A stretch of 64,000 bases of DNA from Macrosoma leucophasiata (Eukaryota > Arthropoda > Insecta > Lepidoptera > Hedylidae). Below are positions 54,663 to 56,757 of this stretch, piece by piece. The translations under genes and the position numbers were made by a program. The notes under the pieces were generated by a model. It was given only the letters and a program-made list of their open reading frames with translations, searched no databases and was not told where the DNA came from. Location of the stretch: contig JAWQUS010000001.1 in NCBI GenBank assembly GCA_036365455.1, positions 24,351,001 to 24,415,000 on the forward strand. The letters run 5' to 3'. Position 1 is the first letter of the stretch. Every line of letters starts with the position of its first letter.

Positions 54663-54860
54663 GACAAGGCGACGCCGCTGTTCATAGCGTCCCAGAACGG
54701 GCACGCGGACGTGTGCGCGCTGCTGCTGGCGCACGGCGCCGACCCCAACGCGGCGCGCGCCGACCGCGCCTCGCCGCTGTGGATCGCGGCCCAGTGCGGG
54801 CACGCCGCCGTCGCCCGCGCCCTCCTCGCGCACCGGGCACACGTCGACAGCACGCGCCAG
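54663..54860 (+). CDS. ANKRD29-like, exon e (two ankyrin repeats, GC donor)
   Basis: Acceptor TTGCAG ends at 54662. 66 codons encode DKATPLFIASQNGHADVCAL / LLAHGADPNAARA and DRASPLWIAAQCGHAAVARA / LLAHRAHVDSTRQ. No GT lies at the end of the repeat; the boundary is CAG|GCGAGT, a good GC-AG type donor (54861-54866). The reading frame also stays open beyond the donor through the whole following array to 56780, so intron retention would not stop translation for about 1.9 kb. The second half of this exon is the unit amplified downstream. Confidence 0.85.
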
Positions 54861-56757
54861 GCGAGTGTCCCCCTGCCCCCCCGCCCCCCTCGCCGCTGTG
54901 GATCGCGGCCCAGTGCGGGCACGCCGCCGTCGCCCGCGCCCTCCTCGCGCACCGGGCACACGTCGACAGCACGCGCCAGGCGAGTGTCCCCCTGCCCCCC
55001 CCGCCCCCCTCGCCGCTGTGGATCGCGGCCCAGTGCGGGCACGCCGCCGTCGCCCGCGCCCTCCTCGCGCACCGGGCACACGTCGACAGCACGCGCCAGG
55101 CGAGTGTCCCCCTGCCCCCCCCGCCCCCCTCGCCGCTGTGGATCGCGGCCCAGTGCGGGCACGCCGCCGTCGCCCGCGCCCTCCTCGCGCACCGGGCACA
55201 CGTCGACAGCACGCGCCAGGCGAGTGTCCCCCTGCCCCCCCCGCCCCCCGCCCCCCTCACCGCTGTGGATCGCGGCCCAGTGCGGGCACGCCGCCGTCGC
55301 CCGCGCCCTCCTCGCGCACCGGGCACACGTCGACAGCACGCGCCAGGCGAGTGTCCCCCTGCCCCCCCCGCCCCCCGCCCCCCTCACCGCTGTGGATCGC
55401 GGCCCAGTGCGGGCACGCCGCCGTCGCCCGCGCCCTCCTCGCGCACCGGGCACACGTCGACAGCACGCGCCAGGCGAGTGTCCCCCTGCCCCCCCGCCCC
55501 CCGCCCCCCTCGCCGCTGTGGATCGCGGCCCAGTGCGGGCACGCCGCCGTCGCCCGCGCCCTCCTCGCGCACCGGGCACACGTCGACAGCACGCGCCAGG
55601 CGAGTGTCCCCCTGCCCCCCCCGCCCCCCGCCCCCCTCGCCGCTGTGGATCGCGGCCCAGTGCGGGCACGCCGCCGTCGCCCGCGCCCTCCTCGCGCACC
55701 GGGCACACGTCGACAGCACGCGCCAGGCGAGTGTCCCCCTGCCCCCCCGCCCCCCGCCCCCCTCGCCGCTGTGGATCGCGGCCCAGTGCGGGCACGCCGC
55801 CGTCGCCCGCGCCCTCCTCGCGCACCGGGCACACGTCGACAGCACGCGCCAGGCGAGTGTCCCCCTGCCCCCCCGCCCCCCGCCCCCCTCGCCGCTGTGG
55901 ATCGCGGCCCAGTGCGGGCACGCCGCCGTCGCCCGCGCCCTCCTCGCGCACCGGGCACACGTCGACAGCACGCGCCAGGCGAGTGTCCCCCTGCCCCCCC
56001 GCCCCCCGCCCCCCTCGCCGCTGTGGATCGCGGCCCAGTGCGGGCACGCCGCCGTCGCCCGCGCCCTCCTCGCGCACCGGGCACACGTCGACAGCACGCG
56101 CCAGGCGAGTGTCCCCCTGCCCCCCCGCCCCCCGCCCCCCTCGCCGCTGTGGATCGCGGCCCAGTGCGGGCACGCCGCCGTCGCCCGCGCCCTCCTCGCG
56201 CACCGGGCACACGTCGACAGCACGCGCCAGGCGAGTGTCCCCCTGCCCCCCCGCCCCCCGCCCCCCTCGCCGCTGTGGATCGCGGCCCAGTGCGGGCACG
56301 CCGCCGTCGCCCGCGCCCTCCTCGCGCACCGGGCACACGTCGACAGCACGCGCCAGGCGAGTGTCCCCCTGCCCCCCCGCCCCCCGCCCCCCTCGCCGCT
56401 GTGGATCGCGGCCCAGTGCGGGCACGCCGCCGTCGCCCGCGCCCTCCTCGCGCACCGGGCACACGTCGACAGCACGCGCCAGGCGAGTGTCCCCCTGCCC
56501 CCCCGCCCCCCGCCCCCCTCGCCGCTGTGGATCGCGGCCCAGTGCGGGCACGCCGCCGTCGCCCGCGCCCTCCTCGCGCACCGGGCACACGTCGACAGCA
56601 CGCGCCAGGCGAGTGTCCCCCTGCCCCCCCGCCCCCCGCCCCCCTCGCCGCTGTGGATCGCGGCCCAGTGCGGGCACGCCGCCGTCGCCCGCGCCCTCCT
56701 CGCGCACCGGGCACACGTCGACAGCACGCGCCAGGCGAGTGTCCCCCTGCCCCCCCT
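54777..56757. repeat. 16-copy tandem array of partial ankyrin exon plus GC donor plus C-rich spacer
   Basis: The phrase GTGGATCGCGGCCCAGTGCG starts at 54779, 54898, 55018, 55138, 55265, 55392, 55518, 55645, 55771, 55897, 56023, 56149, 56275, 56401, 56527 and 56653. The period is 119-120 bp at first, then 126-127, with the last eight steps all exactly 126 bp. Each unit holds about 93 nt of the ankyrin repeat (SPLWIAAQCGHAAVARALLA then HRAHVDSTRQ), the GCGAGT donor and a spacer of C-runs (GTCCCCCTG then blocks of 6-8 C). The ankyrin parts look identical by eye. The long frames on either strand are by-products of the 126-bp (42-codon) period and C-rich sequence. Confidence 0.95.

Follow-up and report, generated by a model that had tools for sequence, protein, structure and literature searches.

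The minisatellite of the human gene IFI6 (6-16/G1P3), whose repeat unit is about 12 bp long, reportedly supplies multiple splice donors, as described by Turri et al. in 1995. Two further papers cite Turri et al. 1995 for this arrangement (PMC2572611, PMC4526556), and one of them relates that two downstream repeat units serve as donors and that three mRNA species result (PMC4526556). In potato, a tandem duplication spanning the end of intron 1 and exon 2 reportedly created a new intron. In yeast, instability of the repeat CEB25 is attributed only to short-loop quadruplexes, preferably with a pyrimidine (PMC5491262).

The locus described here lies within a 64,000-nt window of Macrosoma leucophasiata DNA, the whole stretch that was analysed, and consists of a 16-copy minisatellite that covers the end of an exon of the ankyrin-repeat gene ANKRD29 together with its splice donor. 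As in an IFI6-type minisatellite, each unit carries a usable-looking donor and one acceptor lies downstream. The array may well form a ladder of donors competing for the acceptor at 56805, a reading for which the balance of evidence is judged to be about even. Within the open-licence literature, nothing was found on ANKRD29 in Lepidoptera, on a minisatellite VNTR acting as an alternative splice donor in an exon, or joining tandem duplication, splice donor, exon-intron boundary and minisatellite; among papers there on Lepidoptera minisatellites and splicing, none by its title concerns such an array.

The ANKRD29 gene and its tandem array

Protein comparison identifies the host gene as ANKRD29. 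The best protein matches bear this name, with Melitaea at 74% identity over 99% of the query and Leptidea at 74%, and the best-named matches are from Lepidoptera. Exons of ANKRD29 were found in order within the window by tblastn, all on the forward strand: an exon beginning KESRTDVQ at 43061-43171, three exons of one ankyrin repeat each at 52415-52513, 52988-53086 and 53548-53646, an exon of two ankyrin repeats at 54663-54860 whose last 92 nt constitute the first copy of the array, a single-repeat exon 3' of the array at 56806-56901, and the last exon, which includes the stop, at 57003-57254. Pfam Ank matches both exons that flank the intron holding the array (54663-54860 and 56806-56901), and the short first coding exon, upstream of 43061, was not located in the window. 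The order of the ankyrin repeats, the last repeats and the C-terminal exon agree with insect ANKRD29, to which the window's gene adds the array and, in its last exon, a stretch of about 22 residues rich in Gly, Pro and Ala that is absent from the Melitaea protein. A separate alignment was made of 21 relatives, with the window's own sequence left out.

Elsewhere in the window, four related low-complexity proteins are encoded at 22715-23464 and 30493-31293 on the forward strand and at 35406-36158 and 40063-40530 on the reverse strand. These proteins start with MFKLVLCAL, contain PLSYGAPLAYTGFGY stretches and match Pfam GEO12453p1-like, each below the cut-off, and are taken to resemble a cuticle-type gene cluster. 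A fragment at 20769-21311 (+) matches Pfam Transposase_1 with a partial DDE, likely a mariner-type relic, a reverse transcriptase fragment (Pfam RVT_1) lies at 27305-27847 (+), and 63231-63674 (-) encodes what is likely a segment of a protein kinase, with a match to Pfam Pkinase that falls below the cut-off.

Tandem Repeats Finder reported a single array at 54769-56756 with a period of 126, 15.9 copies, 99% matches and a score of 3802, the top among its 24 rows for the 64-kb window. An exact count gave 16 copies on the forward strand with steps of 119, 120, 120, 127, 127, 126 and 127 nt followed by eight of 126, as the first-pass annotation had it. Each unit, of 119-127 nt, comprises a 92-nt exon end, the splice donor and a C-rich intron start. 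The duplicated segment corresponds to the last 92 nt of the 198-nt exon at 54663-54860 together with 22 nt or more of the intron, consistent with that annotation's description of half an ankyrin exon copied along with its donor, here present 16 times. A 324-nt array query against the species' own assembly (616 Mb, 61 contigs) returned the array locus only, with seven overlapping matches, in a search that skips very common words and gives repeat counts as lower bounds.

Starting at GCTGTGG, every one of the 16 copies has the same 85 exonic and 15 intronic nucleotides, letter for letter, and the differences are confined to the C-rich spacer. The copies had been described as identical by eye, which holds for this 100-nt portion and fails for the 15 full spacers; these fall into five types, arranged as a, b, b, c, c, d, e and then d eight times. 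The types differ by C7 versus C8, by one GCCCCCC block (a and b) versus two (c, d and e) and by one TCG to TCA change, type c reading TCACC instead of TCGCC. The identity of the copies supports an expansion that is recent or homogenised, in line with the earlier proposal that it was recent or under conversion. Because like spacers adjoin one another in blocks and the 3' half is uniform, growth is inferred to have taken place mainly at the 3' side.

The exon at 54663-54860 has a GC content of 0.77 (GC3 0.97). Four other ANKRD29 exons have a GC content of 0.68-0.80 yet carry no arrays, and GC content alone therefore does not explain the site of the array. Spacers 1-3 contain three C runs only, whereas spacers 4-15 each hold one strict four-run C motif (runs of at least five, loops of 1-2), giving twelve such motifs between 55228 and 56644. 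On the template strand (-) each reads as a G-quadruplex motif with loops C, C and CA. From these motifs it is tempting to suppose that the fourth C run helped the array expand. The window's only regular four-run C motifs beyond the array lie at 57103-57114, in the last ANKRD29 exon, and regular four-run G motifs of the forward strand occur at only two places in the window, 35015 and 61116.

Splice donors, acceptors and predicted products

All 16 donors read CAG/GCGAGT, are of the GC type and are identical, and face one downstream acceptor ending at 56805; the first-pass annotation had named both correctly. The first donor (54861-54866, +) lies 1,945 nt from this acceptor and the last 71 nt. 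The segment from the last donor to the acceptor (56735-56805, +), which contains a TTAAT branch match, is likely the original intron, the start of which was multiplied together with the exon end to yield an intron of 1,945 nt. Pairing of the donor with U1 was predicted at -7.5 kcal/mol, ranking second among six ANKRD29 donors, the others ranging from -9.6 to -1.2 kcal/mol.

To obtain the splice outcomes, each of the 16 donors was joined to 56806 by script. The frame is kept by donor 1 (exon of 198 nt) and donor 5 (exon of 684 nt) only. Donor 1 gives the intact normal protein and is the predicted normal splice to 56806. Splicing from donor 5 (55347-55352, +), the one remaining donor in frame, would lengthen the protein by 162 residues, the last of which restore an ankyrin segment. 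With donors 2-4 and 8-16 (12 of 16) the frame shifts and the stop falls in the last exon, and donors 6 and 7 bring a stop 76 nt ahead of the last junction, such that their products would be candidates for nonsense-mediated decay. Because joining each donor to 56806 yields different frames, donors that are equal by sequence are unequal by outcome. The equivalence earlier ascribed to them thus extends to their letters and not to their products.

Two apparent signs, one of frame-keeping and one of coding, were rejected. The period of 126 is a multiple of three, but earlier steps break the frame. Openness of the array in all frames is uninformative, since shuffling the 126-nt unit left three frames open in 2318 of 5000 cases. 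The in-frame array translation at 55588-56734 had no protein match at 1e-10 among 7982 candidates scored.

Each spacer also ends in a potential acceptor, GCCCAG/TGCGGG, from which a mini-exon had been proposed. The arithmetic of that proposal is sound, with 66 nt from CAG/TGCGGG to the donor, in frame and encoding 22 residues per copy, and the pyrimidine fraction of the tract (0.53) is inside the range of the six acceptors of the gene (0.47-0.71). The remaining signals fall short: the tract is 18% U versus 35-65% for those six acceptors, and a yUnAy branch match is found in 2 of 16 copies. These are copies 5 and 6, in which a single spacer substitution creates CTCAC at 55256 and 55383, so that possible but weak mini-exons would lie at 55281-55346 and 55408-55473 (features spanning 55256-55346 and 55383-55473, both +). 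Overall, the internal acceptor is a weak candidate for a mini-exon start. The Helicoverpa armigera model (P0064) passes directly from an early repeat to an exon that opens at CGHQHVARLL, where a mini-exon from the internal acceptor would start, although this may be a gap in the gene model.

Arrays at the matching exon end in other Lepidoptera

In the Bombyx mandarina ANKRD29 isoform X2 (P0121), an identical block of 115 residues occurs twice at the matching exon end. Read as three frames, this block back-solves to a single 115-nt unit that begins with GTACGT at the exon end and finishes with the last 21 codons of the exon. Seven copies would make up the array, every third of their donors would keep the frame, and the model exits at an in-frame donor. 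The unit shares the high GC content of the window's exon, at 0.81, and has no regular four-run motif on either strand, leaving quadruplexes unsupported as a common cause of the arrays. In Spodoptera litura isoform X1 (P0005), VPTYRLVSAGAGPDHVRQ is repeated at the matching exon end, corresponding to three copies of a 54-nt unit of which about 30 nt each are exonic. Both isoforms are annotated gene models, and as modelled they read in frame through their arrays and exit at downstream donors. This lends some substance to the first-pass suggestion of a coding minisatellite generating length variation, but not to in-frame variation from every copy, given the 2 of 16 donors that keep frame in the window.

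The window's unit includes 92 nt of exon; in B. mandarina the exonic part measures 63 nt, running from GHHRV to the end of the exon, and in S. litura about 30 nt, encoding AGAGPDHVRQ. Across the three lepidopterans the periods modulo 3 are 0, 1 or mixed. With these exonic parts and differing intron starts, one common ancestral array is disfavoured. Because unit borders and intron letters differ among the three, the arrays likely arose separately. A different event is seen in the model of Phthorimaea operculella (P0007), where a 27-residue tandem duplication extends across both ankyrin repeats of the matching exon and includes no donor.

A scan for a repeated 10-letter word was applied to 153 retrieved proteins, made up of the best 120 of 2396 matches and 33 from a second search, and was evaluated in the 66 of the 153 with a match to the beginning of the following exon. 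Three of the 66 contain a repeated word, namely the models of B. mandarina, S. litura and Phthorimaea introduced above; all are among 11 named Lepidoptera, with none among the 55 others. The hypergeometric chance of this, calculated by hand, is 165/45760 or about 0.004, for species that are non-independent, a protein list that is non-random and a test picked after two cases had been seen, with one of the three cases (Phthorimaea) lacking a donor. For the two donor-bearing cases only it is 55/2145 or about 0.03, under the same non-independence and sampling limits. Outside the 66, repeated words occur in 14 other ankyrin proteins, mostly separated by close to a multiple of the 33-residue ankyrin repeat. 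The S. frugiperda model (P0004) and most lepidopteran models show no array at the matching exon end, from which absence in those species cannot be inferred because protein models hide arrays that are spliced out. The Papilio machaon model (P0014), which is not one of the 66, reads past the donor and shows no array, and the Diatraea model (P0055) stops short of the matching exon.

The presence of arrays in the models of both B. mandarina and S. litura suggests that this exon end is a recurrent duplication hotspot in Lepidoptera. A broader proposal is that donor-bearing minisatellites keep arising at such a hotspot and that the number of copies and the period modulo 3 determine which of their donors are in frame, giving a length-polymorphic splice ladder that inserts disordered linkers of varying length between two ankyrin repeats; in this full form it is possible but rather doubtful. 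The linker component rests on a structure prediction (21 sequences) for the annotated B. mandarina model, not for the window's protein. In it, ankyrin helices with block means of at least 90 extend from residue 11 to 200, residues 217-304, 328-364 and 366-413 fall below a pLDDT of 50, and ankyrin repeats are found again from about residue 420. Because most of the insert scores below 50 between confident ankyrin repeats, inserts at the matching exon end are likely to be disordered linkers between two ankyrin repeats.

Readings of the locus and comparison with known systems

In the donor-ladder reading, replication slippage or unequal recombination across the GC-rich boundary would have produced the tandem duplication, perhaps aided by a short-loop G-quadruplex that the spacer could form. 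Duplication would multiply the donor, so that a ladder of competing donors faces the single acceptor at 56805. Donor 1 would be mostly used, giving the normal protein. An insert of 162 residues between two ankyrin repeats would come from donor 5, frameshifted tails ending in the last exon from donors 2-4 and 8-16, and early stops with possible nonsense-mediated decay from donors 6 and 7. With only 2 of 16 donors in frame, a tolerated accident explains the array no less well than a ladder.

In a rival reading the array is a passive intronic minisatellite that expanded by chance, with donor 1 always used and the array leaving with the intron, the protein unchanged. This is a real possibility, held at somewhat below even confidence. 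Donor 1 restores the normal protein and closes an exon of ordinary size (198 nt), and the 14 donors that break frame would make use of most of them harmful or rare. Nevertheless, the 16 donors are identical and the last leaves an intron of 71 nt, which is of ordinary size too, and downstream donors are where the models of B. mandarina and S. litura exit. A further idea is that of internal exons, in which all copies but the first would each contribute a 66-nt exon. The in-frame length of 22 residues, the pyrimidine fraction, the CTCAC match in copies 5 and 6 and the exon opened at the matching residue in the Helicoverpa model are in its favour, but with the low U content, the branch match missing in 14 of 16 copies and no such exons in the B. 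mandarina and S. litura models it is very improbable.

The array could also have been over-expanded or mis-polished during assembly from a true short array of perhaps two to five copies, as the identity of the copies and spacers differing mostly by one C might indicate. Against this, the spacer variants lie in ordered blocks with one linked substitution, and the unit matches a single place in the 61-contig assembly. Arrays at the matching exon end in the B. mandarina and S. litura models weaken this explanation further, and it is considered unlikely.

A minisatellite that multiplies donors ties DNA repeat instability to protein length via RNA splicing. The three differently built lepidopteran arrays represent a natural experiment on how the spliceosome chooses among identical donors by distance, and arrays at one exon end also bear on why a single boundary keeps duplicating.

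The principle of a donor-multiplying minisatellite is already known from IFI6, the one earlier case found. ANKRD29 resembles it in having a tandem repeat at an exon end with a donor in each unit, the ANKRD29 donors being candidates recognised from sequence alone. It differs in its unit of 119-127 bp, which holds 30 ankyrin residues and an intron start, and in that other lepidopteran models bear arrays with other unit borders at the matching exon end. New here are the size of the unit, which takes in exon and intron together, and the likely recurrence at a single exon end. The potato duplication is alike in crossing an intron-exon boundary and copying splice signals; in ANKRD29 it is the donor side that has been multiplied, and with weak internal acceptors the old intron would grow. 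CEB1 and CEB25 share with ANKRD29 the GC-rich tandem repeats, G-run motifs and short loops (PMC5491262); their quadruplex-dependent instability has been shown in yeast, whereas the ANKRD29 array is likened to them by motif.
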